From Spinacia oleracea (lineage: Eukaryota; Streptophyta; Magnoliopsida; Caryophyllales; Amaranthaceae): a DNA stretch of 64,000 nt. The notes under the pieces were generated by a model, which saw only the letters and a list, made by a program, of their open reading frames with translations, was not told where the DNA came from and searched no databases. Each line of letters begins with the position of its first letter. Positions within the stretch are counted from its first letter, which is position 1. This document shows, one piece after another, positions 6,605 through 62,400 of the stretch. The position numbers were made by a program, and so were the translations under genes. The stretch covers positions 27,767,449-27,831,448 of the forward strand of contig NC_079491.1 in assembly GCF_020520425.1 (NCBI RefSeq). The letters run 5' to 3'.

Positions 6605-6997
6605 TGTAAAGCCCTGGACTGACTTTACCACACACACACAACACACAAACAGGAATAGAGAAAGGAGTTGTTGATTACTAGGACTCAACGGTCAAGGATT
6701 ACAAAATGCAGTAGCTTTAGGCTACAACTCTCAGGTAAGTAACTTGAGGTTACTACTCTCCAATTCACCAATAAATTCTCAATCCATTTCCCCACCTCTC
6801 CTCTCTTATTTATACAAACTAAGAAGTAAACAACAAGTACAAAACATTAATGCTTCCTCTGCTTTCTTTGTCAGTTTGTGCCAACTGCTGTCCCTGCTGT
6901 AGCTGTGTTGTTGTTGTGGTTGTGGTGCCTCTCCCCTCTTCTGTTGCGCCTGTAATAGACCAACATAGGTGGGTCAGTGTTGGTATGGTCCATTACA
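6605..6997 (-). repeat. 3' LTR of chromovirus
   Basis: On the plus strand it starts TGTAAAGCCC and ends TCCATTACA. It matches 11812-12204 over 393 bp with three differences: two adjacent bases near 6792 and one near 6952. It contains the last codons and stop of gag-pol (6871). Confidence 0.95.
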
Positions 6998-9900
6998 ACA
7001 CCCCGCCCCCAAACCAACACCTTGTCCTCAAGGTGGAAGTCCGGAAAACGGTCATTGATCAAGCCTGCCACTTCCCACGTAGCATCAAATGAGGGCAAGC
7101 CTTTCCATTTGATCAAGACCATGGTTTCTTTCCCCACACTTGCACGCACATCCAGCAGGTCCTCTGGCTCCACCATCAACTCCAACTCAGAAGTAAGTTG
7201 ATCAGGCAAGGATGATGCAGTCACCACTTCTCCAACTGCTCGTTTCAGCTGTGAAACATGGAATACCGGGTGAATTTTACTGGTGGGAGGTAACCTGAGT
7301 TTATAGGCGACCACACCAATCTTCTGTATAATCTCGAATGGGCCATAAAAGCGGGCTGACAATTTCTCATTGGGCCTCTTGGCTAACGAACGTTGCCGAT
7401 ATGGTTGTAATTTCAGAAAGACTTTGTCCCCCACTTCAAAACTCTCATTCCTTCTTCTTTTGTCAGCATTATCTTTCATGATTTGTTGGGCACGCAGCAG
7501 GTTGAGTTTGAGTTCATCTAAAACTCCATCTCTTTCACGTATTAACTCATCCAAGGAATCAACTGGTGTCTGCCTTGCCTCCATCCTCATTAGACGTGGT
7601 GGATCCCTGCCATATACAATTCTAAAAGGGGTCATGCTAGTGGATATGTGAGGTGAGGTATTGTAAGAGTACTCAGCCCACGATAACCACTTAGCCCATT
7701 CCTTCGGTTTCTCACCCGCAAAACAACGCAAATATGTTTCCAGCCCCTTGTTAACGTTTTCCGATTGTCCATCCGTTTGGGGATGGTACGAAGTACTCCT
7801 CTTCAAATCGGTGCCATGTAATTTGAACAACTCACGCCAAAAAATGCTGAGAAACACTCTATCCCTGTCTGAGATAATTGAAGCAGGGAAGCCGTGCAAC
7901 TTCACAATATCACGAATGAAAGCTGCTGCCACAGACAATGCGGTGAATGGGTGCCTAAGCACAATGAAGTGAGCATACTTTGACAATCTATCAACCACAA
8001 CCAATATTGTATCAACCCCTTTGGAGAGAGGCAACCCCTCAATAAAGTCCATGCTAATGTCTTCCCATACCGCCACGGGTACAGGTAATGGTTGCAACAA
8101 GCCAGCGGGTTGCTGTTGCGAGTGTTTGTTTTGTTGGCATACTCCGCACTCCCGTACATACCTAGCTACACTTTTTCTCATCCCCCGCCAAAACCACTCC
8201 GAGGTGAGACGGAGGTAAGTCTTAACCTCACCGGAGTGCCCTCCAACGGGTGAGTCATGATACTCACGAAGCAGTAGGGGAATAAAAGCGGAGAGGTGTG
8301 ACAACACTGTTCGCCCTTTATACAACAACTTCTCACCCACCAACGTGAACCCCGCCAACTGTTTTCCCTCCCTAAGCTCCTGTTTAATCCTTCCCAGCCC
8401 TTCATCTGCCTTGATTTCTTCCTCTAATGTATCCCAATTTATCCCCTGTGAAGTCAGCAATGCACCCAATTCCAGTGTGCCAATTTCAAGCTCTCCTTCT
8501 CCTTTCCTCGAGAGTGCATCAGCCACTCGGTTAGATGATCCGGGTTTATATTGTATGTCAAAATCAAAGCCAATCAACTTCCGAACCCATTTTTGATAAT
8601 CAGCCCCGATTTCTCGCTGTTGGGTGATGTGCCGTAGACTTTGCTGGTCGGTTCTGATCACAAAGTGTCTCCCAAGGAGGTAATGCTTCCATTTTTCCAC
8701 GGCCAAACAGATTGCCATTAGTTCTTTTTCGTATATGGACCTCCCTCTCGCTCTTGGCCCGAGCACACGACTATAATAAGCGATTGGGCGGCCTTCCTGC
8801 ATCATCACAGCCCCCAATCCGTAGCCCGACGCATCTGTCTCCACCACGAACTCCTTACTAAAGTTTGGCATAGCTAGTACAGGGGCGGTAGTCATGGCTC
8901 TCTTCAGCTCTTCAAAAGCCTGTGTGGCTGCTTCACTCCACCCGAAATTGTCCTTCCTCAATTGTTCAGTGAGGGGATGTGCAATGTGGGCGTAACCGGC
9001 AATAAACTTTCGGTAATAACCCGTGAGACCTAGGAAACCCCGAAGCTCCCTCAAATTTTTCGGTGTGCTCCATTCTTTCATGGCTCTGATTTTTTCTTGG
9101 TCTACAGACACACCATGGCTGGATATTACATGCCCGAGATAGGCTACCTCTTCCTTCCCGAACTCACACTTTTTGAAATTCGCAAACAACTGATTTTTTT
9201 CCAGTAATGACAACACTAATTGCATATGCTTCACATGGTCAGTTTCACAAGAACTATATACCAATATATCATCAAAAAAGACAAGAACAAATTTCCTCAA
9301 GTATGGTCGGAATACCTCATTCATAAGTGACTGGAACGTCGCCGGAGCGTTGGTGAGGCCGAACGGCATCACCAAGAATTCATAGTGACCCTCGTGGGTG
9401 CGGAAGGCCGTCTTGTGTGTATCTTCCGGTTTCACAAGAATATGATGGTAACCGGCTCGCAAGTCTAGCTTTGAGAACACCTTAGCACCGTGCAACTCAT
9501 CAAGGAGTTCATCAATTACGGGGATTGGATATTTATCAGGAACGGTCTCTTTATTGAGGGCCCTGTAATCCACACAGAATCGCCAAGAGCCGTCTTTTTT
9601 TTTAACTAACAACACGGGACTCGAGAAAGGACTGGTGGATGGCTTGATGATTCCGGCTTCTAACATCTCTCGGATTAGCCGCTCTATCTCATCCTTCTGC
9701 ACTTGAGGGTATCTATATGGTCGAACACCAACTGGATCACTACCTTCCTTCATGACAATCGAGTGTTCATGCCCTCGGCTCGGCGGTAACCCTTTCGGAA
9801 GCCCAAAGATGCCTTGAAATTTTCCCAGAACCTCGTGCAAGAACAAGGGTACAGTTGGCCCTTCACTGGTGATTTCCTCCACTTGGTTAAACTCCAGTAA

Positions 9901-11769
9901 AATCCCTCCCCCTTCTCTCCTGATTACTTTCAGCATTGCCTTCAAGGAGATTAATGATTTAGCTAGTGACGGATCCCCTTTCAATGTTACAGTCACACCC
10001 TTATCCTGATACTTCATAACCTGTGTTTTCCAGTTGGTGATCACCGGTCCTAGCTTCTCTAACCACTGAATGCCCAGTATTACATCCGAATTTCCCAACT
10101 CCAGAGGCAAGAAATCTTCTTCTATTTCAATTTCTGAGTTCAATTTCAGTTTCACCTGCTTACAAATTCCTTTACCTTTCACTGCCTCACCATTACCAAG
10201 TGACACTCCAAACCCCATTGACTCCATAATAGGTACCTTTAATTTTTCCACCGCCCGGAGCGAAATGAAGTTGTGGGTGGCTCCGGGATCCACCATCACC
10301 ACCACCTCGCCGTCTTCGATGCGCCCGACCAATTTAAGTGTCTTCGGGTTGGTAAGGCCTACAATCGAATTAATTGAGAGTGTTGTCGGTATCTCCTCCT
10401 TTCTCTGCTCCTCCAGCGAATAAAACTCACCACCGACTTCCTCTCCGGTCAGCTCCTCTCCACCGTCCTCCTCATCCACCAACAAAACATTCATCTCCCT
10501 CTTCTTACACTGGTGGCCGATGCTCCACCTTTCATCACACCTAAAACATAAGCCTTTAGACTTTTTTTCCTGTAATTCACGCTCAGTCAATCGTCTTGTT
10601 TCTCCAATGCCGGAAAATCGCGAGTTTACTGTAGCAGAACGAGGTGGGTTGGTGTTTGGGGAGGATCCGTAGGATCCACTTGAGTTGACTGGTTTGAGGT
10701 ACGTGTTTTTTGACAGTGGGTTATACTGGGATGGGTTTAAAACATGGTTCTGGGCCCCTGAGGTTGTTGGTGTTGGGTTAGTGGCTATTGGGCTTTTACT
10801 GAAATATGAGAATTGTCCACTCCTGCTATTCCCATACCCACTTCTTCGTACCCGGTTACGTTCTTCAACCCGAGTAGCTAGATCCATCGCTTCATCCAGT
10901 GTATACGGGTTTAGAACCCGAATTTCAGCTTTAATATCATCTTTAAGCCCATTCACAAATTGCCCAAGCATTATACTCTCTGGAACGTCATCTAGAGGAG
11001 ATGCTAGGTCAATGAACTGCCTCACGTAGTCAGCCACCGTGGTGGTTTGAGCCGTCGCCAACCATTGTTCGTGCAAAGTTCCAGCATTAGTGGGGCGAAA
11101 CTTTGCCAAAACTCGAGCTTTCAACTCCGGCCAGCTTCTCATCGGTCTCCGGCGTGATTCAAACGTGAACCACCTCAGCGCATCCCCCTCCATTGACACC
11201 ACCGCGGCATCCATTTTCTCAGTCTCTGTTAACTTGTAAAAGTCAAAGTATTTTTCACCACGAAGAATCCAGCCGTCTGGATCGCTACCTTCAAACAGAG
11301 GCATATCCAATTTCCGATACTTCCAGTGACCGCCGTTCCCCCCACCTCCATCGTCGAACCCACCTCTCCCAAAGTTCCTGCCAATCCGCCTCGGTGGGTT
11401 CATTTGATTTTCCGAGTACTCCTCCTCCTCCAAGGTCTGAGCAGGGGGTCTGTTAGCCAATAAAGCCTTCACCTCTTCTTGAAATTTCTCCTGGTTCCTT
11501 TTCATCAACGCCAGTTGCGTCTCTTGGTCCTCTCTAAATCTATCAATTCTGCCTTCTAGGCGGATGGTAGCTGCATCTACCGTTTCTTGATTTTTCTGTG
11601 TGTCCTCCGCGCTCTTGGCCATGAATTGCTCAGCAAGATTCTTTTGGAAGGTCTCCATACTCTCTGTTAAGAGCTGCTGCACCCTCCCTTCCAAGGTGTT
11701 CATCCGTTGCCCTACTTCTGTGAGCCCTCCTTCCAAGGCCTCAAATCTCAGCGAATTTGAAAGCACCAT
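6871..11769 (-). CDS. gag-pol polyprotein, Ty3/gypsy chromovirus, 1632 aa
   Basis: Polyprotein for capsid, protease, reverse transcriptase, RNase H and integrase, uninterrupted over 1632 codons. Order: a coiled N-terminal segment and Gag (about residues 170-300), zinc knuckle [16 protein letters not shown] (about 410), protease [10 protein letters not shown] (about 495), reverse transcriptase with FFDDILVY (about 832), RNase H with [10 protein letters not shown] (about 978), integrase zinc-binding H-H-C-C (about 1180-1215) and catalytic region from MDFIEGL (about 1240), then a chromodomain with [15 protein letters not shown] (about 1540-1590). The protease has Pro in the D-S/T-G position, a variant seen in some plant elements, so activity is unproven. 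The last 40 or so codons lie inside the 3' LTR. The start Met follows the primer-binding site by about 30 nt. An intact frame suggests the copy may still be competent. Confidence 0.95.
6998..7010 (-). other. polypurine tract of chromovirus
   Basis: On the minus strand GGGGGCGGGGTGT abuts the 3' LTR. This is the expected site for priming second-strand DNA synthesis. Confidence 0.8.
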
Positions 11770-11797
11770 GGCTACCCTTCTTCCTCAGGACGTGGCT

Positions 11798-15454: not shown

Positions 15455-16666
15455 CTATCCTATAGTTAGCTTCTCCAAACAAATACCTGCATGTTTGGAA
15501 TAAACTTCATGGACTTCCTTGAATGGTAGCACAAACTTCTCCAAGAACTTTGACTCGGTGTATGATACGGCAGAAACAAGAGAGTAATCCAACGTAATCA
15601 AACCTTTCTCCTTCAAGACTAGGAGGGTCTTATGTCTCGGTACTATTCTCTTCTCCAAGCTACAAGTAAACAAGGAACACGTCTTTGCCAAGAAACTAGG
15701 CTTGTAACCCAGCTCATTCATGAAAAACCCCAACCTTTTCTTGAGGTTAGCTTCGGAAAGTGCCAACAGAAAAGGACTTGATATTGTGAGAGTTACAACA
15801 TCAGACTCAGTCCACCCAAAGCTCTTAAATATTTGTCTTTTCGACTCAACAGTCGTTTCTTTAAGAGAGTTCAACAACATAATACCTAACAAGAAACGGG
15901 GCGAATCTCTAGGAATCCCCAACTTCTCTTCAACCCTAATCAATGCATCCTGGGTAAATTCAGTTTTCCGGAGAAAGGGAAATGGGTTCCTAAGTAGCTG
16001 TTTCCGGATTAATTCAATGGGGATCCCATGATTCATTAGCAACGCTACATTAGGCACCAAAAGTTTGGAAACAGATAAAAGCCTGATACGAGGAGATTTC
16101 ATAATCGAAATTACATGGAGATCACAACCCATAATCTCCTTCAAAGCTTGAAATGCTGGAATAATTTTGGTATCCAACCCCATAAAAAATATTGAAGGAT
16201 TCACCTTGACAACCTCAACAATATCGGATACAGAAAACCCCATTTTCTGAAAAGCTAGGGTCTTGGGAATTAGGGTCTTTTCAACATTACTGAACAAAAT
16301 TAGGGGATCTGAAACTACAGCAGTTCGAATATGACATTGTTCCAATCCATTTTGTTTGAGAAATTTAACAACGGAATTAGAATTTTCAACAAATTCGAAA
16401 TCACTGACCTTTTTCGCACCTCGAGCTAGACGACTGCGGACGAGCTTAGTGTAAGTGGAAAGAGCTTGTTGCTTGGAAAACCCTAAAAAATCGACCAAGT
16501 AATTCGCGAAATCAGGGTTGCATTCTGCTGAGGTTGAAGTTGAGTAGAGAAGGAGATGACGGAAACCATGGAAGAAATTCAGGCGCTGGGCTCCATTGTA
16601 GTTGCTGTGAAATTTGAGCATTCTTCCCAAAGGCCAACCCCAAGACCGAACTAGCATTAAATTCAT
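15455..16666 (-). CDS. mTERF-family organelle protein, 403 aa
   Basis: A member of the plant mitochondrial transcription termination factor family, nucleic-acid-binding helical-repeat proteins that act in organelle transcription, splicing or translation. The frame is intact and intronless, as is usual for the family, and the length is typical. The first ~48 residues are rich in Arg, Ser and hydrophobics with almost no acids (MNLMLVRSWGWPLGRMLKFH), a likely mitochondrial targeting sequence. From about residue 55 come successive mTERF helical repeats, each with a hydrophobic start and a Pro-containing turn: DPLILFSNVEKTLIPK, NPSIFFMG, SPRIRLLSV, NPFPFLRK, SPFLLALSEANLKKRLGFF. The start at 16666 is the first ATG; another Met (codon 4) follows at once. 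No gene neighbour shares its direction closely. Mitochondrial rather than chloroplast location is an inference, and no individual family member could be named. Confidence 0.93.
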   Translation of the reverse strand: MNLMLVRSWGWPLGRMLKFHSNYNGAQRLNFFHGFRHLLLYSTSTSAECNPDFANYLVDFLGFSKQQALSTYTKLVRSRLARGAKKVSDFEFVENSNSVVKFLKQNGLEQCHIRTAVVSDPLILFSNVEKTLIPKTLAFQKMGFSVSDIVEVVKVNPSIFFMGLDTKIIPAFQALKEIMGCDLHVISIMKSPRIRLLSVSKLLVPNVALLMNHGIPIELIRKQLLRNPFPFLRKTEFTQDALIRVEEKLGIPRDSPRFLLGIMLLNSLKETTVESKRQIFKSFGWTESDVVTLTISSPFLLALSEANLKKRLGFFMNELGYKPSFLAKTCSLFTCSLEKRIVPRHKTLLVLKEKGLITLDYSLVSAVSYTESKFLEKFVLPFKEVHEVYSKHAGICLEKLTIG

Positions 16667-16721
16667 TCTCTCTGGATGATGTTTTTTTTGTCTATGGACA
16701 CATTACACATATGGTTAGCCG

Positions 16722-18246: not shown

Positions 18247-18340
18247 CTAACCCTAACCCTAGGCAAATACTCTTCCGCTGCTCTTCTGTTCTTCTGCTTT
18301 TCTGCTCTTCCTTCTCTGTCTCTTCTTCTTCTTTCTTTCC

Positions 18341-21300
18341 ATGGCCGGTGATGAGGATGTGCTCCCTCCTCCTTCCACCACTGTGCTCCATGCTTATCAT
18401 CCGGCGCTTAATGCCACAAACGTGAAGGCTTTGATAACTCTTGTTCTCGACGTGGATAATGTGCAGTATACACCTTGGGCGACCTTATTTCGTAATACGG
18501 CTAAGGTTTACATGGTCTTAGATCACATCGATCCTCGAGTCCAGAAACCGAAGGACGTGGATGATGACTTATGGGAGCGTCTAGATGCGGTTGTTCTCCA
18601 ATGGATTTATGGGTCTATTTCGAAGGATCTTCTCCTTAAGGTCTTGGACGAAACTGCCTCTGCCATGGACATATGGAACAAGCTTCGCAAAATATTTCGA
18701 GACAATCGTGGCACGCGAGTGGTGTTGCTGGAAAACCAATTCGGTAACATTCGGATGTCCAATTTTTCGTCTCTTGAGGAATATTGTCAAGCCCTAAAGA
18801 CGGTGGCTGATCAGCTTGCTGCACTCGATCACCCGGTGTCGGAGGAACGTTTGGTTCTTCAATTGGTCGGTAAGGTCGACGCGGAGTATCGTACCATTGC
18901 AACGATTATTCGTCAAACCAATCCTCTACCGTCGTTCGAGGATGCGTGCTCCACCTTGGATTTGGATCGGCTTGGTCGTCTATCCGAAAAAGATGACGAC
19001 GCACCTTCATCCGCATTGCTGGTTGCGGGTAATACTCACGGGACTGCTGGGTCTCAACCGCCGGCGAGTGGTGGCCACCGTGGTGGCGGTGGAAAGTCAG
19101 GGGGTGGTAAAAACTACAAGGGAAAGAAGAAAGGGGGTAATGGGGCTGCTTCTAGTGGCTCGGGTTCGAACACGGGTGGCCAGGTTCGTGGCCAGCAACA
19201 AGGCCAACTTCCTATGTTCTTTAATCCTTGGGCTTGGGCCCAACAGTTTATGTCTCCTCCCTGTCCATATCCCTCACAACCTTGGAGATCCAATGGTACT
19301 GCTCAGCAAGGGATATTGGGCCCTGGTCCGCGACAGCAACAGGTTCAGCAGCCCAATGGGGCGTTTCTGGTCCCAGGGGGTTCTTTTCAGCCCACAGATT
19401 TACCGACTTTCTTTAATGCAATGTCGATGCAACCACCGGATTCGAATTGGTACATGGATACGGGTGCTACATCACATCTAATGAACGGATCAGGTATTTC
19501 CTCTTCTATTGTTAATTGGCGTAATTTGAATTCTCATATTATGGTTGGTGATGGCACGAAAATACCAGTTAGAGGTTCCGGAACTACTATCTTATCCAAC
19601 CCATTCCCTCCTCTTACTCTCAAAAATATTCTTTATGCCCCTAATATCATTAAGAATCTAGTCTCCGTACGTCAATTCACTACCGATAACTGTGTTTCTG
19701 TTGAGTTTGACCCTTTTGGTTTTTCTGTGAAGGACCTACGGACGGGGAAAATATTGACGAGGTGCAATAGTGTTGGGAATCTCTATCCTCTATCATCCGC
19801 ATCACCTTCTTCTCCTTCGGCATTTGCTGCTATTTCTTCTGATGTTTGGCACAACCGTTTGGGACACCCAGGAGATCAAGTTCTTAGTTTTCTTAGAAAT
19901 CAGAATTTTATTCGTTGTAATAAGGGGTCTAACCTCACTGTTTGTCATGGTTGTCAATTAGGCAAACATTGTCGTCTTCCTTTTTCAACTTCTCTTACTA
20001 AGACATTTTCTCCGTTTGATATTATTCACACCGATTTATTTACGTACCCTATCAATAGTCATACTGGCTTTCGGTACTATTTGCTATTTTTGGACGATTG
20101 TTCTCATTTTTTGTGGGTTTTCCCTCTAAAATCTAAATCGGAAGTGTTTAATGTGTTTGTACGCTTTCATACCTATGTTCGGACTCAATTTGGGACTACT
20201 ATTAAAGCTTTACAATGTGATAATGGTCGCGAATTTGATAATTCGAATTTCACGTCATTTTCACTAACCCATGGCATGATTTGGCGGTTCTCTTGCCCCC
20301 ATACCTCCCCCCAAAATGGAAAGGCCGAGCGTATGATCCGAACCATAAACAATATCAGTAGATCTCTTATGTTTCATGCCTCTCTTCCCCCTTCCTATTG
20401 GGTCGAGTCTCTTAATATGGCCACATATTTGTTGAACATTCGGCCTACCCGCCTTCTTGGTAATCTCACTCCGATGCATATGCTATATAACAAGGCCCCT
20501 TCCTATGGTCATCTCCGTACCTTCGGATGCCTATGTTACCCTAATCTCTCGGCTAATGCACAAAATAAGTTGAGTCCTCGGTCTGCCCCTTGCATATTTC
20601 TTGGGTACCCATCCTCTCACCGCGGATATCGGTGCCTTGATTTAGCTACTAAGAAGGTGATCATCTCTCGACATGTTAATTTTGATGAAAATACATTTCC
20701 AAATTCTCAAAATTATGTGCCCAATGTGAAGGATTATTCATTTCTTGAGTCTGACTTGGACATTCCAAGTCCCCCTCTCATTCGTGTCCAGACCCAGCCC
20801 ACACCTCAAGCCCACCATGATGATCCACTAATATTGGATCTCTCTCCTTTGAATTCTGGCGGGCTCCCTCCTACTCTCTCTGGGCCGGCCCAATTACCAC
20901 AGACCAGTCCAATCTCCCCCCTTCAGGTCCGTGGTCACGCCCCTACCACACGTGGGCCTCGCCCCACCTCTCCTCCTAGTGCTCCACACGGTATAGCTGG
21001 GCAGAATGGGTCACCCATAGACCGTGGGACTGTTCAATCAGCCACGGCCCATGAGTGGCCTACCCACTCTACTGATGTGGGCGCCTCATCCCCGACCTAC
21101 ACATCTTATTTCTCTCCTGAGCCCAATTCTGTTGCTCCTACCCAATCTCCTCCACCACACTCGCTTCACTCCATGCGAACTCGGGCACAAGCCGGAATCT
21201 TTAAGCCAAACTCCAAATATGCTAGCTTGGCCTTAATTTCTTCGACTACGCCCAATATTTCTCCTATTCCGAAGTCACCCGTGCTTGCCCTTAAGGACCC

Positions 21301-21989
21301 TAACTGGTATAATGCTATGTCTGATGAGTATAATGCCATGATTGACACTCATACGTGGGATTTGGTACCACGGCCATCGAATGCAAATGCGATTCGTTGT
21401 TTATGGGTTTTCACCCACAAGGAAAAATCAAATGGGGATTTTGAGCGGTACAAGGCACGTTTGGTGGCCAATGGTAAGGGTCAAGAGGTTGGTGTTGATT
21501 GTGGTGATACTTTTAGCCCGGTTGTGAAACCAACTACCATCCGTACGGTTCTCATCCTAGCTTTCTCTAAGCAATGGTCTATTCATCAGTTGGATGTGAA
21601 GAATGCTTTTCTTCATGGTAACTTACAGGAAACGGTTTATATGCATCAACCTCCCGGGTTTGTCAGGCCAGACAAGCCCAAACATGTTTGTTTACTTCGC
21701 AGGTCTATATATGGTCTAAAACAGGCTCCTAGGGCGTGGTATCAAAGGTTTGCCACCTTCATTATGTCCCTGGGATTTGTTAACAGTAAAAGTGACACTT
21801 CCTTGTTCATTTTTCGCCGTGGTACAGATACTGCCTATTTACTGCTGTATGTTGATGATATCATACTTGTTTCTTCCTCTGTTGCCCTCGGGACTCGTAT
21901 CATTGCCCTGCTCAGTTCTGAGTTCGCAATGAAGGATCTTGGTCCCCTTTCATATTTTCTTGGTATATCTGTTTCTCGTACCAAGAACA
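18341..21989 (+). pseudogene. outer copia gag-pol, 5' portion (interrupted)
   Basis: Copia polyprotein, open from the ATG at 18341 until the nested insertion at 21990 (the frame then reads into the LTR and stops at 22033). Gag occupies about residues 1-230 and is followed by a Gly/Ser/Gln-rich stretch with no CCHC knuckle. Protease WYMDTGATSHL is at about 370, pre-integrase WHNRLGHP...CHGCQLGK at 504-540, and the integrase catalytic residues D (HTDLF, about 563), D (CDNGREF, about 625) and E (GKAERM, about 660). Reverse transcriptase has QLDVKNAFLHG (about 1083) and YVDDIIL (about 1170). The copy looks otherwise undamaged up to the break, so it was probably intact when hit. The rest continues at 32434. 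Confidence 0.92.
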
Positions 21990-23384
21990 TGAAGGAAATA
22001 ATGCCCTTGGTCCAAGTATGTATTCAATGTTAAGTCTAATAAATGCGGTTCAGTATTAATTAACAAGTTAATAATTCAGTGAGATCAAGTGAGCTGAATG
22101 CCTAGCTAGAGGCCGCTTCAGTTCAAGTGGAATTAATGATATTAATCCACAGCTTACTCTTGACTGAACCCGTAGGGTCACACAAATAGTACGTAAACGG
22201 ATCAAGTATTTAATGGCATTAAATACTCCATCTATGGATATTCGGAATCGACGGATCTTGGTTTCAGTGGGAGCTGAGATCGTCACAGGCAAGAAAAGAA
22301 TACTCCGGAAACGATGATATTGCCGGAAACGGAAATATGGATCGTATCGGAAATATAAATATTATCCAAGTCGTAGATGTTGCCGGAAACGGAAACATGG
22401 TACGTATCGGAAAATATTATCGGAAATGGAAATATTGCCGGAATCGGAAATATTGCCGGAAACGGAAATATTGTCAGAATCTGAAATATTATCGGAATCG
22501 AAAAATAATTCCGGAAACGGAAATATTAAATATTTGTTCGAAACGGAAATCAATTCCGGAATCGGAAATATTAAATATTGTTCGTATCGGAAATGAATTC
22601 CGGAATCGAGAATTTAATCGGAAGCGTATCGTACGAATTAGCATCGGACGAGGCCTGCCAGACGAAGGCCCAGCACGAAGCCGGGCCATCGCCCAGCAAG
22701 CCAAGCGAACAACCACACGCCAAGCATACGACCAGGCCCAGCGCAAAAGCCAGGCCCAGCCGTAGCTTGGTCGCGCGCGCGGGCAAGGCTGCGACAGTGG
22801 GCCTTGCGCTGTGCGCTCGGCGTGGGCCGCAAGGCCTGCGTGCGGGCGTGCGGTGCTTGTGCGCCACTCGTGTGTGTTACTCGGAATCCTAAGGCAACCG
22901 GGATTCGTAATATGATTAAATCTAATCCTAATAGATAAACTTTGTTTAATTAGAATCCTAGTAGGGTTATAATTAAATAGATTTGTATTTTAATAGGATT
23001 ATAATTCCTTTCCATAAACTCTATAAATAAGTGCCTAGGGTCACATATTTACAACGTGTTTTCAAGTATTCAAAGTGAGTTTTTGAGAGAAAAATTCAGT
23101 CACACATTTGCCTAAAAGTGCCGAAAATTAATAGTACCTTAAGGGCGATTCTAGTTGGTCAATCTTAAGGCGGATCCGGACGTGCTGTGGACTATCTACG
23201 GAGGGACGACACTTGGAGTCCTAAAGACTTGTTCTTGTTCGGTTCGGGCGCAGCTAGGGAAGGCACGCAACACAGAGTATGCATCTAAACTGTGCTAAAT
23301 GGTTATGTGTAAATAATATGTATTCCTGGCTTAATGGTTGTTTCCGCATGATTTATGAATTGTCATATGTATCATAACCTAACA
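21990..23384 (+). repeat. 5' LTR of nested copia
   Basis: It starts TGAAGGAAATAATGCC and ends TCATAACCTAACA; 1395 bp. It includes a CGGAAA-rich array, a GC-rich block at about 22650-22870 and an ordinary TATAAATA at about 23023, the likely promoter. Confidence 0.95.
22318..22620 (+). repeat. CGGAAA/ATATT array inside LTR
   Basis: About 300 bp built from degenerate units of the kind GGAAATATTGCCGGAAAC and GGAATCGGAAATATTATC, with CGGAA recurring about every 9-18 bp. The same array occurs in the 3' LTR at about 31362-31668. It produces long but meaningless open frames on both strands. Confidence 0.8.
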
Positions 23385-40130: not shown

Positions 40131-40670
40131 TCAAGCGTCGGTGGGTGGATCGGAGAGATAGATCGTCTCCAATTTTCCAATAAACGCTCCTTCAGTGTAT
40201 AGCTTCAAACGTTGACCGTTCACTTTGAACTTGGTGCCATTTTCACTAGCAACCTCAATAGCTCCACGTTCCTTGACTTCGGTGATAGTAAAAGGTCCGG
40301 ACCATCTAGACTTAAGCTTTCCTGGAAAAAGCCGTAGTCGTGAATTATTAAGCAAGACCTTATCACCGATGTTGAACTCCCGTTTTTGAATTATCTTATC
40401 ATGAAACTTCTTCGTTTGCTCCTTATAGAGCCTATGATTCTCGTAAGCTTCAAACCGTAGTTCATCTAGCTCATTCAATTGAAGAAGTCTCGCTTCACCG
40501 GCCGCTTCTAAATCCATATTGATCTCCTTGACGGCCCAAGTAGAGAGATATTCCATTTCAACTGGTAAATGACAAGCTTTGCCATACACCAACCTATACG
40601 GAGTTGTCCCCAACGGAGTCTTGTAGGCCGTGCGCAACGCCCACAATGTGTCATCCAACTTCAACGACAA
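40131..40670 (-). pseudogene. Athila integrase C-terminal part (frameshifted off)
   Basis: It continues the integrase in a different frame: [39 protein letters not shown], then the C-terminal RWSGPFTITEVKERG region and stop. It overlaps the end of the large gag-pol frame by 10 bp. Compared with the family, the junction near 40671 lacks a single base, which throws the main frame into a stop. Confidence 0.9.
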
Positions 40671-43600
40671 TCTTTTCGAGACTTGTTGACCACTTTTTTG
40701 AGAATTCTCTTGATCTGTCGATTAGAAACTTCGACTTGGCCACTCGTTTGAGGATGATAAGCCATGCCAACCTTTTGAGTAACTCTGTGCTTCTTCAGAA
40801 GAGCCTTAAAAGTCCTTTGATGAAAATGGGAACCCCCATCACTAATCACGACCCTTGGGACTCCAAAGCGCGGAAAGATGATTTTCTTGAAAAGATTCTT
40901 TACGACGTTAGAGTCGTTGGTTGGCGATGCAATAGCTTCCACCCACTTTGTAACGTAATCAACGACAACCAAGATGTACCGATTCCCACATGAAGAAGGG
41001 AACGGTCCCATAAAATCAATGCCCCATACATCAAATGGCTCAACTTCAAGAATTCCGGTCTGTGGTAGCTCTTGCCTTTTCGAAACATTGCCCGTCCGTT
41101 GACATTCATCACATGCATTGCAAAAGAAACGAGCATCCTTGAATATAGAAGGCCAATAGAAACCACTTTGAAGAGTTCGATGGGCGGTCAGAATAGCACC
41201 AAGATGGCCACTAGAAGGTAAACTGTGGCAATGCTTAAGAACCCCGTGGGTATCCCAATCCGCTACACACCTACGAAACATACCATCGGCACACTTCCGA
41301 TACAAATGTGGATCATCCCAAAAATACCGCTTAGCATCATGGTAGAATCTCTTACGTTGTTGATATGTCAATTCCGGAGGATGGGAGCCACCAACACAAT
41401 AGTTCGCAAAGTCCGCATACCATGGGGATTGAGTAGACACAGAGAATAGATGATCATCAGGAAAAGAATCATTGATAGGCCCGTCTGCGCTAGATTGAAA
41501 TTTCAACCGAGAGAGATGATCTGCAACAACATTCTCAGCACCCTTCTTATCCCGAATCTCTAAATCAAACTCCTGGAGAAGAAGAATCCATCGAATAAGT
41601 CTTGGTTTGGCCTCTTTCTTGGCCAACAAATACTTCAAAGCGGTATGATCAGTGTGTATAATGACTTTCGAACCAACAAGATACGTCCGAAATTTGTCAA
41701 GTGCATAAACAACCGCAAGGAGCTCTTTCTCAGTAGTAGCATAATTCATCTGAGCTCCGTCCAAGGTTTTGCTTGCATAATAGATGGCATGCAACACCTT
41801 GTTCTTTCTTTGGCCAAGCACTGCTCCAACAGCATAATCACTCGCATCACACATAATTTCGAACGGCAAATCCCAATCCGGAGGCTGAATGATCGGAGCA
41901 GTTATCAATGCTTTCTTTATCCTGTCAAAAGACTCCAAACAAGCATCAGTGAACTCAAATGTGGCATCCTTGAGCAGTAATTGAGTGAGGGGTTTCGCAA
42001 TTTTAGAAAAATCTTTTATGAAACGGCGATAGAAACCCGCATGACCGAGAAAACTCCTCACTCCCTTGACATTCACGGGAGGGGGAAGTTTCTCGATCAC
42101 CTCAATTTTTGCTCGGTCAACTTGGATGCCACGCTCAGAAATAAGATGACCAAGTACCACTCCTTCATTGACCATAAAGTGGCACTTTTCCCAGTTCAAT
42201 ACCAAATTCACGTCAGAACAACGTTTAAGCACTTTAGAAAGATTATGCAAGCATACATCAAAGTCAGAACCATAAACACTAAAATCATCCATAAATACCT
42301 CCATGATATCCTCGATGAAGTCAGAAAAGATGGCCATCATACACCTTTGAAATGTAGCAGGGGCGTTGCACAAACCAAACGGCATTCTGCGGTATGCAAA
42401 AGTTCCATATGGACAGGTGAACGTCGTCTTCTCCTGGTCGTCTGGGTGAATGGGAATCTGAAAGAAACCTGAATATCCATCCAAATAACAGAAAAAGTTG
42501 TGTTTTGCTAATCTTTCTAGCATCTGGTCAATAAAGGGGAGGGGAAAGTGATCCTTCAAGGTGGTCGTATTCAACATTCTATAATCTATACACATACGCC
42601 AACCTGTGACAACACGAGTGGGGATAAGCTCATCCTTATCATTCTTAACGACCGTTGTCCCCCCCTTCTTAGGAACGACTTGCACCGGGCTCACCCATTT
42701 AGAATCTGAAATGGGATAGATGATGCCCGCATCAAGTAGTTTCACTACCTCTTTTCTCACCACATCTTGCATATTAAGATTCAAACGACGTTGTGGCTGT
42801 ATGCGAGGGCGGTGATCTGCTTCCAAGTTAATTCTATGCATACAAAAGTTAGGACTAATGCCCTTGAGATCGTCAATGCTATACCCGATTGCCTTTTTGT
42901 GCATACGTAGCACGGTCAGAAGCTTAGAAAGCTGGCTATCGTCGAGTGCAGCATTAACGATCACAGGAAAATCCTCATTATCATCAAGAAATGCATATTT
43001 AAGGTGAGATGGTAATGGTTTTAGTTCTACCTTCGTTACCTGTGGCTCGGAAATAGAGCAAACAGTTGCCAATACCTCAAAACCATCGACCTTCTCAACT
43101 TCAATTCCATCTAAATCCGAGATCAAGGAATCAATCTCACAATCTCCTTCTCCTTTATGGGCTTCCAAGGTGAGAGTCGCCAGCAATAGATCATCATACA
43201 ACATTCTAGGAATGTTGTCTAGAGAAATCTCTTCTGCAATATCAATCCTGCAACAAGTATTCTCAAGCATAGGAGACTTCACAGCATTGGTTAGATTAAA
43301 AGTAACAGTATCATCACCAACACTCAAAGTAAGAGACCCAGACTTGACATCAATAACAGCACATGCAGTACATAAAAATGGCCTACCCAAAATTATGGGG
43401 ATTTGACTATCCTCCTCCATATCTGGCACCACAAAATCAACAGGAATGTAGAATTTTCCCACCCGGACAGGAACATCCTCCAAAATACCTAAAGGATATT
43501 TTATAGAACGATCTGCCATTTGCAAAGTGATTTGTGTGCATTTTAGTTTTCCCATATTCAACCTATTACAGACAGAAAGGGGCATGACAGACACACTTGC

Positions 43601-45676
43601 ACCTAAATCACATAATGCTTTATCAATGAACAATGCACCTACATGACAGGGGATGGAAAAACTACCCGGATCCTTAAGTTTGGGTGGAGACTTATTTTGC
43701 AATATGGCACTACACTCTTCAGTTAGAGCGACTCTCTCCACACCACCATAATCCCTTTTCTTAGTGATCATCTCTTTCAAAAATTTTGCATAAACAGGAA
43801 CTTGAGATATTAAATCAGCAAAAGGGACCGTTACCTCAAGATTCTTGACCATTGCCAAGAACTTACCAAGCTGTTGATCAACCTTAGTTTTCTGCATCCG
43901 GTGAGGGAAAGGTAACTTAGGCACAATAGGGAGAGAATCAGAATTCTTCTCTTTCCCCTTATTTGCACCAACATCATCAGCATTACCAACTTCCAGGACT
44001 TGAGGCTCTGCATCAATTGCTTTCCCTGGTCCATCTGTGTTCTCCTTAGCAAGAGTTGCATCATCAGTGGGCATCGGGGGTCCATTATATTTAGTGCCAC
44101 TTCTAAGAGTGATAGCATTGGCACTTTCTCTGTTCTGGGGCGGAGTAGGTTGCCCTGGTAGTGTACCCGGTTGCCTTTGAGATAGAATGTCAGCAAGTTG
44201 AGCAACTTGATTCTCCAACATTCTATTCTGATTCTTCAACTCTTTGATTCTCTCATCATGGTTCTTTTGAGCTATCTCTGCGGTCTTCTGCATATTTGCA
44301 ACGAGCTTATACAGATCACCCATGTTAGGCTCTGGAGTAGCACTGCTCTGAGGGGGTTGTTGATATCCTTGATGCGGGGGCCTATTAAACCCCGGGGGGG
44401 CATTATGTGAGGCTCCTTGTTGAAATGGAGGCCTAGCAACATGTGGTTGAGGTGGATGGAACTGTGGTTGCGACCATTGTTGCTGGGGTTGAGGATTCTG
44501 AACATTGTTGCCCCGATATGAGAAATTTGGATGATTCCTCCAACCCGGATTAAATGAATTGGAATATGGGTCATTGGGTTGTCTCTGTTGAAAAGCATTC
44601 ACTTGCTCCAATTGCGTAGTATCCTGTAAACTATAAGAGCACTCATGACCAAAGTGACCTTGGATTCCACATACTTCGCAGTAAGAAGTTGTCACTGGAG
44701 CTACACTAGACATAGCATTAATACTCACTGGGGGAGTACTAGACTGAGGAGCCTTCAAAGAATCGATCTTCAGGTTCAAGGCTGCCACTTGTGAGGACAA
44801 TAGAGCATAAGCATCGACATCCAATTTTCCCTTCTTAGATGTGGATCTGGTGGTGCTGTAATGGTTGGCAGCTAAATTGGCAAGAAAATCATAACCTGCA
44901 TCCACTTCTTTGTCAAGAAAAACACCCCCAGCAGCAGAATCAACCGTGTTCTTTGTTTCATCTTGCAAACCATGGTAGAAAATCTGAACCAAGAACCATT
45001 TTTCAATGTTGTGATGCGGACACGACCGCTGCAAAGCCTTGAATCTATCCCAGGCTTCTCGAAGTGATTCACCAGGTTCTTGAGTGAATGTAGTCAGCTT
45101 ATGCCTTATTTCAGCAGTCTTGGTGGGTGGAAAGAATTCTTCTAGGAAGGCCTGTGAAATAACACTCCACTCTGTCTCCTTGACATCATTCAACCATGTC
45201 TGAGCCTTATCACGAAGGCTAAAACCAAACAACATGACTTTCAATTGGTCTTGAGTGACCCCTTGATGCTTGATAGTACCACACAGTTGGTTGAACCTCT
45301 GCAAATGGCTGGTGGGTTCCTCAGATGGATGGCCACCATATTGACTTTGTGAGACCATGGAGATTAGAGCGGGTTTGATCTCAAAGTTGACTGCATCAAT
45401 AGTTGGCATTGTGAGCCCAGTCGGAACACTATTCGAGGAAGGAACCCCATATGATTTCAGGGATTTAGACATCGTGTGACTCGGTGGAGTCTGTGAGTCT
45501 TGGGACCCTGACTGCTTCTTCTTTTTCTGTTGCTTTTTTAGTTGACAAAGGGTCTTTCCGAGATCGGGATCGGGAGGAACCAAGGTACCCGTTCTGGCAG
45601 ACCTGGGCATAAACAACAACGAAAGAAAACGCAGTGAGATTTGCCTCAATTGGAACTGAGAGTTCCAATGAGACAA
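40661..45676 (-). pseudogene. Athila gag-pol, 1671 aa, truncated in integrase
   Basis: A large open frame with Gag (about residues 100-280; [18 protein letters not shown]), zinc knuckle [14 protein letters not shown] (about 332), protease [14 protein letters not shown] (about 692), reverse transcriptase with FMDDFSVYG (about 1125), RNase H with [13 protein letters not shown] (about 1275), integrase zinc-binding region [11 protein letters not shown] (about 1520) and catalytic DFMGPFP (about 1555) and SDGGSHF. FMDD for YxDD and DLGAS for DSGAS are usual in Athila. The frame ends early at KSRKDCR and the rest is in 40131-40670. The first Met (45676) may not be the true start: a Met about 23 codons later ([10 protein letters not shown]) is equally plausible. 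Confidence 0.92.
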
Positions 45677-45724
45677 TGGAAACAGTTCAAATAATCAAAC
45701 TAAAACTAATAGAATCTAGCCGTC

Positions 45725-51288: not shown

Positions 51289-52245
51289 GGCCCTGTTCTA
51301 TTGTACTTATTTTGACTAAACTTATCTATCTATTACTATTACTATATACTAAAAGAGACACCAGAAATGACACGTGTCATTTTCTGGTGCGATTTTTTCC
51401 CGCCAAAATGTTTTTTTATTTTTTACTTTAAAATAATAAATTACATTACGTTTTTTTTAGGAACTAAGGTAAAAATATACTTTAATTACCATAAATGTGT
51501 ACTGCATAATATATTATTGGAGGAAAGCTAAATCAATATTATTTTTTCCTTTATGATATAATTTTATTTATGTATTATTATAACTTTTTAATCTGATAAG
51601 AAATATAACAAATATTGATAAATGAACTTCTAATGTCAGTCTACTATTAATAATATAATACGGAGTACATGGTAACTGGTAAGTAAGAATGTTAATTAAA
51701 ATAATAATACATGGTAAGTAGACTAACATATAAGTTTATTTATCAAGAATTTACTCAATTCAAAATATGTTGTATTTGACTAACTCGGTTACGCTCGGGT
51801 CTTTTCGAAAATTAGTCTAGAGTCATTCGGGTTTGGTTAATGTTGTTAGATCGATCTACATACAAGTAAACGACTAAAATTTTTAACTTTGTATAATAAT
51901 ATGCAAATTTAGTTCATTTGAATATTTTTTTTACACACCTTTGAATTTATACTTTTTCATATATCCTTTTTACTTTCATGTTTTCCTAATATCACAAGTC
52001 TTTTAGTTACTATTAAAATAATAAAGTTTTTAGTAATAGTCGTGCGTTGCACGGGCCCTAAACTAGTATTATCTGAACTTAACTGAACTTATCTAAACTT
52101 ATTTTATCTGAAAAAAAAATATTTTATCTGAAATAAACTTATTTATGTGTGAAAATTTCTGAAAAAAACTTATTTTTGTTAAACTGAACTTATCTGAACT
52201 TATAGTGTCTGAAATAAATCAAAATAATTCGAACAAAACAGAGCG
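51289..52245. mobile_element. Tourist-like MITE split by a Helitron
   Basis: Left end GGCCCTGTTCTATTGTACTT and right end AATTCGAACAAAACAGAGCG are inverted relatives, and TAA lies outside both (51286-51288, 52246-52248), as for PIF/Harbinger MITEs. Without the Helitron it is about 219 bp and consists mostly of CTGAACTTA repeats. Confidence 0.65.
51329..52066 (+). mobile_element. short non-autonomous Helitron, 738 bp
   Basis: The left end TCTATTACTATTACTATATA is preceded by A, followed by AAAAGAGACACCAGAAATGA. The right end has a hairpin (CGTGC GTT GCACG), then CTAG followed by T. These are standard Helitron termini with A/T insertion. A start four bases earlier (51325) is also possible. No Rep/helicase frame. 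Confidence 0.88.
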
Positions 52246-52411
52246 TAATTCCTTTTTACCAAACAAAACCTTCCTAAAAGAGAGCGATTTCCTTCAATAT
52301 TGTGTAAAGAACGTCAAATTCCCAAAATGCGCCACTTTTTAACTTAATTCCCACCATACCGTCCACGTCAGCATTAAAACCGGTCTTTTTTTTTTCAACC
52401 AAGCGACACTA

Positions 52412-52467
52412 AACCGCTATCTCAGGTAGCGGTTGACTTAAGTAAACCGCTATCTGAGATAGCGGTT
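52412..52467. repeat. two 23-bp near-palindromes, left cluster
   Basis: Copies at 52412-52434 and 52445-52467 of the pattern AACCGCTATC...GATAGCGGTT. The second copy is a perfect dyad around its centre. Confidence 0.9.
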
Positions 52468-52516
52468 TATAATCACGTACTATTTATAAATGGTAAAAAA
52501 AAAAAAAAAAAAAAAC

Positions 52517-52589
52517 CGCATCAGCTAGGGGTCGAACCCACGACCCTCTGTTTAGGAAACAAATACACTATCCACTGAGCTACAAACAC
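52517..52589 (-). pseudogene. tRNA-Arg(CCU)-like module
   Basis: 73 nt on the minus strand fold as a tRNA: acceptor GTGTTTG/CTGATGC with one mismatch and wobbles, box A TAGCTCAGTGGATAG, anticodon arm TTTGT-TTCCTAA-ACAGA (anticodon CCT), T arm with GGTTCGACC as box B, discriminator G. The D stem is mispaired (GCTC/GTGT), so a decayed or diverged tRNA gene is likelier than a working one. A T-run of about 20 follows it on the minus strand and could end Pol III transcription. Confidence 0.7.
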
Positions 52590-52656
52590 TAATGTTGATA
52601 AGTTAAATTTGGAAATGTTTATAATTAATATTAATAAATGGTTAAAAAGAAATAAA

Positions 52657-52729
52657 CACATCAGGTAGGATTCGAACCCATGACCTCCTACGTAGAAACA
52701 ACCCACTCTATCCACTGAGCTACAGACAC
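52657..52729 (-). pseudogene. second tRNA-Arg-like module
   Basis: 73 nt on the minus strand: acceptor GTGTCTG/CTGATGT, box A TAGCTCAGTGGATAGAGT, box B GGTTCGAAT, T arm ATGGG/CCTAC. By position the anticodon would be TCT, but the anticodon stem does not pair (GGTTG/GTAGG), so it is not a functional tRNA. It resembles the first module closely in the D, T and acceptor parts. A T-rich stretch with TTTTT follows. Confidence 0.65.
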
Positions 52730-52811
52730 AATTGATGTCACAAGAGGTTACTTCTAAATTATATTTCTGTTTAAACTGTAATTCATATTAAAAATAATTT
52801 ACAATTAAGTA

Positions 52812-52939
52812 AACCGCCATCTGAGATAGCGGTTTTGTTTTAATGCAAACCGCTATATGGGATAGCGGTTTATAACATTGAACCGCCATCTGAGATGGCG
52901 GTTTGCTTTAAAACGAAACCGTTATCTCATATGGCGGTT
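52812..52939. repeat. four 23-bp near-palindromes, right cluster
   Basis: Copies at 52812-52834, 52848-52870, 52881-52903 and 52917-52939 of AACCGC(C/T)ATC...GATGGCGGTT. Several base changes are matched by compensating changes in the other half (52881 copy: both halves carry the C/G variant). Confidence 0.9.
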
Positions 52940-53099
52940 CAATGCTGAACCGGAAAAAAAAAATTACTTCTCTTTCTCCCTTGCTTACGTAGACGGTATG
53001 GTGGGAAATAACTTAAAAAGTAACGTATTTAGGGAATTATTGGATCTTTATGCAATATTGAAGGAAATCGCTCCCTAAAAGAAAAGATTGTTCTTTCAT

Positions 53100-59400: not shown

Positions 59401-62400
59401 GAGGCTCCCGCAAGAAGCGGGGTAAGGGGGGGTCGGGCGTACGCAACCTTACCCCTGCAATTGCAGAGAGGTTGTTTCCAATTGACCCAAAAGCGATAAC
59501 GAGACGACCATCTTCTACTTCATGGAAAGGAAGCGAAGAGGTTTTAAAAGCCATTTTGATTTAGTCCATTACATCCACAGCCAAAAGAACAAATGAATCT
59601 TTGGCTCCATCGGAAATGGACATACACTAATCAATTAATCAAAAAACTAATTTAATTTTCATGCCACAAACTTATGCAAAGTAAGCTTCGACCACGGAAT
59701 AGACTTTTGCATATTAAGCTAACACCGGGATAGACTTATACATAATTAGCTCATGCCATGGTATGAGCTTAAAATGCATAAGTCTACACCATAGTCGAAG
59801 CTCCAAATTCATGTCTCTAAGTTTTTTTCCATGTTAAATAATTCATATTCAATAACAAATAAGACCCCTAAATGACATAGACTTTTGCATATTAAGCTCA
59901 CACCATGGCATAGAATTATGCATTTTGAGCTCCTGCCATGGTATGAGCTTAAAATGCATAAGTTTATACCATGGCAGAAGCTCCAATTTCATAAGTCTCT
60001 ATTTTTTGTTCCGAATTAATTATTTCAAGTTCAAGAACAAATAAAACCCCTTAATTCACAGATTTATGCATTTTAAGCTTGTACTACGGTACATACTTAT
60101 GCATTTTGAGCTCCTGCCATTGTACAAGATTAAAATGCATAAGTCTATGAATTTTTTTCCGGACCAAAAAGAAAAGAATTGCCTGTTGTAATGTCGTCGA
60201 GTTCTCCGGGATGACTCGGACATATAATAATTGCGACGCATTTTCTCGTCGGTGATCTAGCCTCGGTGCGGTGGCTGGATTGACATCCGGAGGTGGCCAA
60301 AATTTGGTGGTATTTGGTGGTGGCCGGAATCTAGTGGTGACCGAAGGTGGTGGTGGCCAGAAATATGGTGGTAAGGTTGGAGGTGGAAGAAGGTAAATGG
60401 TGAAAGGGGGAGGTAATATAGGAGAGGTATACGGGTAAATAAATGGGGGCGGTAAATAGTAAGCCCCTAATTTCTTTCTATGTTCCAGTGTCAGTTCAGA
60501 TGCTTTGATCTGTCCTCATTTATAATTATCCATCTGCATCTATGTTCTATTGTATTCCGGAATGGCTGATACGTTCCAGTAATGATGTTTGTGCCTCTTT
60601 TTCATTGTCAACTCCACCCCGCCTTTTCCAAAACGCTGTGAATCTGTTTAGAACTCACATATCAAGTTTCTACTTCCAGTTGGTATATAGATTGGCTATG
60701 ATGCTTCTGAGCAGAAGCTCCCCGGCTTCTTCTGTGGTTAGGGCTCTGAAACTGACATAATGTCTTCAGGAACTTAAAGTACTAATAAAACATTACTTCT
60801 TTATATGGAAAATATGTTCTGTAGTTATTTTGTTTTTGATGTTTGTGTTACTCATTTTTTTTAATTGCTGCTGCCTTTCCCCCCCCCCCCCCCTACCTTA
60901 CTTCCTTTCCCTGTAGTTTCCCATAAAATGGTTCTCTTCTTTGTACACGTGGAACTCTTCAAGTTCTAGAAATGGTTAGATCAATGCTGGGTGTTTTTGT
61001 CCTTGTTCTTGTGTTCCTTATTAATTGATGCAAATCTATGGGATTGTACTTTTAATTACGGTAGTCCACATTTTTTTCCTTTGTTTTTTAGATCACTCAA
61101 CACAAGTTGGCATGGCCTTTTATGGAGCCTGTAGATGTTGAAGGCCTTGGATTGCATGATTACTATGAGGTAAAATAAAGTCCCTTTTTTTTTCATTTTG
61201 TTTCAGTAGTTTAACACTTTTAATTGTATTCTGTGAACACTACTCTGTTCATCCTAAAACATTTCTGTTTGATCTTTTGTGGTCAAAGTTTGATATTGTT
61301 CACCATTAATTTGTTAGAAGTTGTAAGAATATTCTTGTTTGATTTGTGATTTGTCTTCAAAAGTTTCTTCCCTCATGTTTTACTAAGATATAACTGGAGA
61401 AAGTGATTGTCGAAGTTCCATCTTGGAGAGCAGATGTCAAATAGGAAATTTATTTTCAGTACTGCACAATGATATTGCTTTACGTAAGAGAACAGTTCAA
61501 GCTTATCTGCTTTTGTTGGTCAATCTGTGTGCCTTTTGAATTTTTTGGCTGCTGGAATTTTCTACCTCCTCACCTTTTCTGTTTCTACCAGATTATTGAA
61601 AAACCTATGGATTTCAGTACGATAAAGAAACAAATGGAAGCTAAGGATGGTAGTGGCTATAAAAATGTGCGGGAGATTTGTGCTGATGTGAGGTTGGTTT
61701 TCAAGAATGCAATGAAATATAATGATGAAAAGAATGATTTCCATACCATGGCGAAAACCTTGTTGGAAAAGTTTGAAGGGAAGTGGCTACAGTTTTTGCC
61801 TAAAGTTACGGAAGAGGTGAGATTACAGTTATCATAAGACAAATTCTTTGTGTGTGCACAGTAGTTTAGCTGTTTGTTATATACGAGTTGAGTCATGTTA
61901 TATTATTCTTTCACGTGATTATAAAACCATCTTGCTGTTGCAGGAAAAAAGGCGAGACGAAGAAGAAGCGCATCTACAGCTTAGTATGCAGCTAGCTCAA
62001 GAAGTTACTCATGCCAAAATGGCAAGAGATATGTGCCATGAGGTTTGTTCCTTTTTTCGGAAAGATTGGGTTTTGCTTTACTGAAACTTCTTGAGTATCT
62101 GTAGCAATCATGCAATCAACGTTCCTATCAAACATGCTGTGTAAGATCTCTAAGGTAAAATCATAATTTTAAAAAAAAATTATAACCAAAATATAAAACC
62201 ACTTGCAGAATATTCCGAATTTGAAAATTCCCAAAAACCAATATACTTTCAATATGAACAGACAATAAGTGCTTGTTTGGTTGAACATGCGAAGTAATGT
62301 TGTCTGAGAAGATGATCTCCCATGTAGTTTTTTTCCTAGGAATTGCTACATGTTGTTTGGTTGGGCACAAGAAAATTTATTTCCGGTTACGGTTCCACCT

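Follow-up and report, generated by a model that had tools for sequence, protein, structure and literature searches.

Genomic context of the element

The window, i.e. the whole stretch of DNA that was analysed, comprises 64,000 nucleotides of the Spinacia oleracea genome. They map to G000:C5:27767449-27831448. An ORF at 15455-16702 (minus strand) matches an MTERF protein of Spinacia oleracea with 100% identity across 95% of its length, and ORFs whose translations read like polyproteins of LTR retrotransposons are distributed between 6871 and 45694, e.g. at 6871-11784 (minus), 18263-22033 (plus), and 40661-45694 (minus). The segment at 52040-52066 (TCGTGCGTTGCACGGGCCCTAAACTAGT) resembles the 3′ end of a Helitron (a hairpin and CTAG before T). 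A bromodomain (PF00439, E = 6.6e-13) is encoded at 61445-61834, downstream of the transposable element described here.

Structure of the Mutator-like element

The features identified in and around the element are as follows (entries without a sign have no strand).

52273-52281: left 9-bp target site duplication (TSD), CCTAAAAGA, a perfect match to the right TSD
52282-53073: non-autonomous Mutator-like element of 792 bp, recognized by its TSD, its terminal inverted repeats (TIRs), and full-length relatives at other genome sites
52282-52373 (+): left TIR, from arm-to-arm comparison
52412-52434: palindrome 1, 23-bp near-palindrome
52445-52467: palindrome 2, 23-bp near-palindrome
52473-52806 (-): tRNA cassette, the stretch absent from the module-less copies L035, L042, and L064; borders approximate
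52495-52515 (-): T21 run 3′ of module m1, Pol III terminator-like by sequence
52517-52589 (-): module m1, decayed tRNA-Arg(CCU); 31.1 bits with RF00005, ARAGORN call Arg(CCT)
52595-52597 (-): CAA at -8 to -6 of m1
52618-52623 (-): TATAAA at -34 to -29 of m1; weak, the stretch being AT-rich
52644-52648 (-): T5 run 3′ of module m2, Pol III terminator-like by sequence
52657-52729 (-): module m2, tRNA-Arg-like with unformed anticodon stem; 24.9 bits with RF00005, no ARAGORN call in the window
52732-52734 (-): CAA at -5 to -3 of m2
52758-52763 (-): TATAAT at -34 to -29 of m2; weak, the stretch being AT-rich
52812-52834: palindrome 3, 23-bp near-palindrome
52848-52870: palindrome 4, 23-bp near-palindrome
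52881-52903: palindrome 5, 23-bp near-palindrome
52917-52939: palindrome 6, 23-bp near-palindrome
52982-53073 (-): right TIR, from arm-to-arm comparison
53074-53082: right 9-bp TSD, CCTAAAAGA, a perfect match to the left TSD

The perfect 9-bp duplication described in an earlier note on this DNA was recovered at 52273-52281 and 53074-53082. The TIR given there as 86 bp is also present, but its length is about 92 bp: the outermost 21 bp of the two repeats are identical, and the likeness reaches approximately 92 bp. The arms can be aligned, less well, out to approximately 188 bp each, and each arm contains two palindromes. The element thus possesses both the 9-bp TSD and the long TIRs that characterize Mutator-like elements (MULEs). 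Captured host sequence between the TIRs, which distinguishes Pack-MULEs, is represented by the tRNA-Arg(CCU) of a related cassette at locus L137, as a match to the donor type.

Both 73-nt tRNA-Arg-like modules lie on the minus strand, each followed by a T-tract on its own strand, as the earlier note had described, and both reside, together with their flanks, in a tandem duplication of approximately 140 bp. Scored with the covariance model that the note had proposed as a check, m1 passed the Rfam RF00005 cut-off of 29 bits and m2 fell below it. Neither module scores like a functional tRNA (31.1 and 24.9 bits versus 67 in host genes), and the anticodon stem of m2 has only 1-3 of its 5 pairs formed in all 52 full-length copies scored. 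By sequence, each module nevertheless presents an A box, a B box, and a T-run in the order of a type 2 Pol III unit. The A-box pattern is kept in 49 (m1) and 50 (m2) of 53 copies, a strict B box in 40 and 41, and a T4 terminator in 52 and 53, respectively. The TATAAA and TATAAT motifs at -34 to -29 resemble the upstream motifs of plant tRNA genes. The element in the window appears to be one of the decayed copies, with other repeats on one side and the bromodomain gene on the other.

Palindromes at the element ends

The six 23-bp near-palindromes reported earlier were all found, far above the shuffled expectation: their motif gave 12 matches in the window (both strands, ≤3 mismatches), and 0 are expected from shuffled sequences (n = 100). 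The note had further read compensated changes in the two halves as a sign of selection or conversion, a claim that the comparison of copies did not support. A mirrored change at position 7 was seen by eye in one of the six, the palindrome at 52881. Among 495 palindromes from 90 elements, 141 of which are distinct, the distinct forms carry 57 mirrored changes versus 41.3 in shuffles (sd 5.0, largest 60), but only 21 versus 17.9 (sd 3.8) when position 7 is left out. The excess therefore arises solely at position 7, and is made up by two symmetric forms, T7 (100/495) and C7 (52/495).

Because palindromes were found in all of 60 complete copies listed by their TIRs, they more likely belong to the family sequence at the element ends than to a Pol III device; perhaps they serve as transposase sites. 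A copy of a sister subfamily (L090) contains palindromes with another core (e.g. AACCGCCATTTGAATTGGCGGTT), which are still nearly symmetric. Once folded, the paired palindromes would form long hairpins, a possible source of small RNAs. Those at 52822-52929 and 52410-52469 gave sub-threshold matches to the plant miRNA families MIR1319 and MIR7526, and all matches of Rfam miRNA families to the palindromes lay below the cut-off. The motif gave 0 matches in viral contigs and no match in plasmids, and its single bacterial or archaeal match (L001), found directly past the end of an ORF on a contig of a goat-gut bacterium (GC 0.55), was taken as chance. In a literature search with the exact motif words, no plant-transposon title was among the matches listed.

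The element family and its tRNA cargo

The 21-mer of the TIR was found at 888 genome sites (≤2 mismatches; 0 for the reversed control), and the first 100 sites listed yielded 60 complete copies, of which 33, 4, and 23 contain no, one, and two tRNA modules, respectively. This set includes two apparent segmental-duplicate pairs (L093/L094 and L107/L108), the members of which lie approximately 10-13 kb apart and have identical TSDs, suggesting that the DNA around them was duplicated locally. The earlier note had made its reading depend on whether every copy contains the tRNA pair; the pair is absent from 33 of the 60 copies and is thus cargo of one subfamily, whereas the reading as a mobile element is kept. 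The module-less copies (e.g. L035, L042, and L064) have the same arms with other filler between them. In two of these, L064 and L052, a common filler (TTTAGGGAATAT / CTTACCGTACC-type stretch) is present in opposite orientations, and on this basis the family swaps its interior.

A perfect 9-bp TSD was detected at the exact ends of 67 of 101 complete copies and a TSD with one mismatch in 15; when the ends were allowed to shift by ≤3 positions, a perfect 9-bp TSD was found in 75. A query with the whole element returned 730 candidates, and all 40 that were scored, picked by likeness to the window copy, aligned over at least 788 of the 792 bases at 94-100%. The mean pairwise identity among 35 copies of 748-796 bp is 0.958, suggesting that the spread was fairly recent. 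The cassette flank, represented by a 31-mer between the modules, occurs at 131 genome sites (≤3 mismatches; control 0), and TIR pairs surround the cassette at 7 of 11 loci examined among these.

Several copies have unusual arrangements. L075, L101, and L111 are 2374-3363 bp long, have 9-bp TSDs that match, and carry their two modules close to one end. Their ORFs do not exceed 142 aa, and the three are perhaps nested insertions or contain further cargo. At L025 and L008, two family elements or arms lie back to back within 250 bp, and two cassette copies (G000:C4:210514 and C4:212239) are located 1.7 kb apart in opposite orientation.

Host sites resembling the modules were sought with a 5′-half pattern of Arg-type tRNA (20 genome sites) and with a 30-mer (15 sites at ≤2 mismatches), and six host-pattern loci (L133-L138) were retrieved at 130 bases each. 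L133-L135 contain identical tRNA-Arg(CCU) sequences (67.1 bits), and the variant in L136, in which an acceptor pair is compensated, scores 67.0 bits. L137 is a cassette-borne m1 (63.6 bits) whose tRNA is one base from that of L136 and whose flank differs from the m1 flank of the window at one of 45 bases, and L138 has the m2 flank (44.1 bits). The combination of a cassette flank and a tRNA close to L136 at L137 indicates that m1 derives from a captured tRNA-Arg(CCU) gene; judging from the six loci, the donor type of m1 is the spinach tRNA-Arg(CCU), and m2 may be a duplicate of m1 or a second Arg-type gene. The earlier proposal of a mobile Mutator-like element that took up a Pol III-type unit is borne out by the existence of the family, the differing 9-bp TSDs, and the tRNA donor type. 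Taken together, the anatomy, family, cargo, and donor type of the element are almost certainly as described here.

Excess change in the tRNA modules

The tRNA modules vary more than any other part of the element, an excess that is visible only when copies are compared. This is surprising, because modules useful to the element or the host would be conserved. In a set of 32 copies (35 minus L044, L051, and L061), nucleotide diversity (pi) is 0.076 in the modules (m1, 0.095; m2, 0.058) versus 0.022 elsewhere. Parsimony changes were counted in 46 of 54 aligned copies (737-821 bp) on a tree built from non-module columns, with L036, L044, L051, L061, L081, L088, L103, and L109 (deleted, diverged, or lacking modules) left out. 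The counts per site are 1.14 in m1 and 0.77 in m2, and 0.21-0.35 in the other regions, with the inter-module spacer at 0.21. In this set, the ratio of the modules to the rest is 3.51 (site-bootstrap CI 2.61-4.68), or 2.75 (CI 2.04-3.67) without the eight hottest sites, and that of the modules to the neighbouring spacers is 4.30 (CI 2.90-6.65). Restoring most of the dropped rows (51 copies) gave the same picture (m1, 1.48; m2, 1.37; elsewhere, 0.33-0.79), and no 73-nt window outside the modules and the T-run exceeds 0.38 changes per site. Module changes are correlated with branch length in the rest of the element (r = 0.69 and 0.62), and 10 of the 46 copies have fewer changes in the modules than elsewhere.

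Tree-free measures were also taken. In 23 disjoint nearest pairs, 119 module and 149 other differences were found (ratio 3.41), and the 15 closest disjoint pairs gave 5.42. Private alleles alone, the most recent measure, number 40 in 146 module sites versus 100 in 623 others, a 1.7-fold excess (p = 0.007) that is the lowest of the estimates, and their density in the right TIR (0.250 per site) is as high as that in m2 (0.247). This count misses the hot CG/CHG sites, because changes there recur, whereas a wrong tree would inflate parsimony counts. The true ratio of the modules to the rest is therefore read as lying between 1.7 and about 4.

The edges of the excess are sharp: the 20 bases 5′ of m1 and m2 contain 7 and 6 changes, respectively, and the 20 bases 3′ of m2 contain 1. 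Within the modules, the anticodon arm region (positions 23-44) is the hottest, with 35 (m1) and 21 (m2) changes in 22 sites, and the A-box region is the least changed, with 9 and 6 changes in 15 sites. In a second subfamily, pi is 0.144 in m1 and 0.206 in m2 versus 0.041 and 0.060 in the spacers, as calculated from 13 of 22 rows after removal of rearranged copies; all rows had been found via the inter-module 31-mer, which lowers the diversity of that spacer. Before the rearranged copies were dropped (20 rows), the spacers spR (0.177) and spL (0.222) were as variable as the modules.

Spectrum and strand bias of the changes

The excess in the modules extends to A/T sites (3.03, CI 1.85-4.74), to sites outside CG/CHG (2.60, CI 1.81-3.60), and to transversions (2.11, CI 1.37-3.13). 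On the tRNA-sense strand of the modules, C>T and A>G changes number 57 on 55 sites versus 44 on 91 sites for their complements, G>A and T>C (p = 0.0002 if changes are independent; site-bootstrap ratio 2.36, CI 1.29-4.39), and the same bias was not found in the rest of the element (47 on 309 versus 45 on 314 sites). By part, the bias is significant in the loops of m1 (p = 0.013) but not in those of m2 (p = 0.17) or in the stems (p = 0.39 and 0.54), and it depends in part on a small number of CpG sites. A selected RNA that tolerates G-U pairs could also give rise to such a bias, but the stems do not show it and it appears in loops.

CG transitions are concentrated in the modules, with 24 at 10 module sites versus 8 at 54 sites elsewhere in the 46 copies. 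Beyond the modules, CG sites thus change very little even though this is a plant transposon, which suggests that germ-line methylation of the element is low except in the tRNA bodies. The palindromes, which form the strongest hairpins, are not hot (0.25 changes per site); hairpin formation is therefore not the cause of the module excess. As to conversion between the m1 and m2 of one element, the sites at which the two differ have few changes, of which 7 of 15 and 2 of 6 went to the base of the other module.

Possible origin of the excess

The following course of events is the favoured account of these features. A non-autonomous Mutator-like transposon of spinach, recognizable by its TIRs and by the palindromes next to them, took up a host tRNA-Arg(CCU) gene as a unit comprising the TATA- and CAA-like upstream motifs, the A and B boxes, and the T-run terminator. 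This unit was doubled in tandem within the element, after which one subfamily spread the pair as its cargo, presumably with the help of a transposase acting in trans. Germ-line Pol III transcription, during the spread and after insertion, would raise mutation in the tRNA body (transcription-associated mutagenesis), and CG/CHG sites would suffer an extra C-to-T loss as expected of methylated cytosines. As the sequence would not be held by selection at the level of translation, the cargo would erode itself. tRNA genes are thought to mutate fast as a result of heavy transcription, an effect that is masked by selection on the tRNA. The coincidence of the affected stretch with the tRNA body, the sense-strand bias, the low level of change in the A box, and the persistence of Pol III signals in most copies count for transcription, whereas the flanks, which are not raised, and the private-allele ratio of just 1.7 count against it. 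From the sequence comparisons, we assign a probability of roughly 0.5 to transcription-associated mutation by Pol III combined with methylation-like decay at CG/CHG sites as the whole explanation. The narrower proposition that the modules carry a sharp-edged scar of transcription, sense-strand bias included, left by germ-line activity of Pol III on the cassette during its spread, is tentative, and we would place it somewhat short of even odds.

Germ-line CG/CHG methylation of the tRNA bodies, but not of the rest of the element, could by itself have led to decay by deamination, with no transcription involved. The concentration of CG transitions in the modules (24 at 10 sites versus 8 at 54) is what such methylation would produce, and clustered tRNA genes of Arabidopsis bear CG and CHG methylation according to PMC12308677. 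However, the excess also affects A/T sites (3.03), transversions (2.11), and sites outside CG/CHG (2.60), and five CpG pairs show 18 C>T versus 6 G>A changes, where symmetric methylation should hit both strands alike; methylation alone is thus a serious but unlikely explanation. Exchange with host tRNA genes or with other modules, by gene conversion or by recombination, would bring diversity into the modules alone if homology ended at the tRNA body, and would explain the sharp edges, and four-gamete conflicts are indeed commoner at module sites (188/630 versus 144/903). Outside CG/CHG, these conflicts are near the level of the rest (44/231), and the changes are neither clustered in space along branches (permutation fractions 0.49 and 0.90) nor overdispersed (1.57 versus 1.74 in a control split). 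In comparison with the six host-pattern loci, moreover, 72 of 83 changes in m1 leave the host base and 7 go towards it, and in m2 the corresponding numbers are 46 of 56 and 1 (position by position, and approximate near the anticodon indel), so that conversion has little chance of being the cause.

It is similarly improbable that live tRNA-Arg units harm the plant and that inactivated copies were kept by selection: the modules change most and region 23-44 is the hottest, but the A box, where a change would most readily abolish transcription, has changed less than any other module part, and the A-box, B-box, and T4 signals persist in most of the 53 copies. One or two SINEs inserted in the element and moving on their own would supply a tRNA-like head and a T-rich tail. 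This origin is very hard to reconcile with the presence of the pair at the same place in all aligned two-module elements, with the duplication of the module flanks, and with the resemblance of intact copies to a whole tRNA gene with its terminator (L137). The earlier note had also suggested a tRNA-derived insulator or promoter, which would have been kept for the adjoining bromodomain gene. The bromodomain is indeed encoded downstream of the element, but 131 sites in the genome have this cassette flank, the tRNA structure is decayed, and the modules exhibit no sign of conservation; this role is unsupported, and we give it scarcely any credence.

Implications and comparison with known systems

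If the combination of Pol III transcription-associated mutation and methylation-like decay is correct, a mobile element that erases its own Pol III cargo through transcription would be of a kind not described in the literature searched. The family would also constitute a natural mutation experiment with more than 100 live Pol III tRNA units that are free of tRNA selection and have flanks of equal age. Such unselected replicates, with their flanking controls, would give direct measurements of Pol III-linked mutation: its rate and spectrum, its strand bias, and its extent. The family further demonstrates that whole tRNA genes can be spread by cut-and-paste transposons, which provides a route to new tRNA genes, pseudogenes, and false tRNA annotations. 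In a literature search of titles and abstract openings, no description of a MULE spreading tRNA genes was among the matches listed.

Pack-MULEs and other plant non-autonomous Mutator-like elements have 9-bp TSDs, long TIRs, and captured fragments of protein genes. The spinach element is like Pack-MULEs in its 9-bp TSD, long TIRs, lack of coding capacity, captured host DNA, and the presence of other cargo in sister copies. It differs in carrying a whole Pol III tRNA gene that was doubled in tandem and then multiplied, whereas their cargo is a protein-gene fragment, and in having palindromes beside the TIRs (60 of the 60 spinach copies counted). Like plant tRNA-derived SINEs, the modules have a tRNA-like body with A and B boxes and end in a T-rich stretch; unlike these SINEs, they move inside a DNA transposon with TIRs, are paired, and have plant-type flanks, and some are near-intact tRNAs.

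According to Thornlow et al. (2018, PNAS), mutation is reportedly elevated at tRNA genes, with the flanks raised and changes in the tRNA body hidden by selection. The spinach modules resemble those genes in having an excess of change at Pol III tRNA units, but the excess is seen in the body and not in the flanks. The SYY cluster of Arabidopsis, which consists of silenced tandem tRNA genes (PMC12308677), is similar in its tandem arrangement and in the CG/CHG methylation proposed; the Arabidopsis arrays are chromosomal, whereas the spinach pair is the cargo of a transposon.
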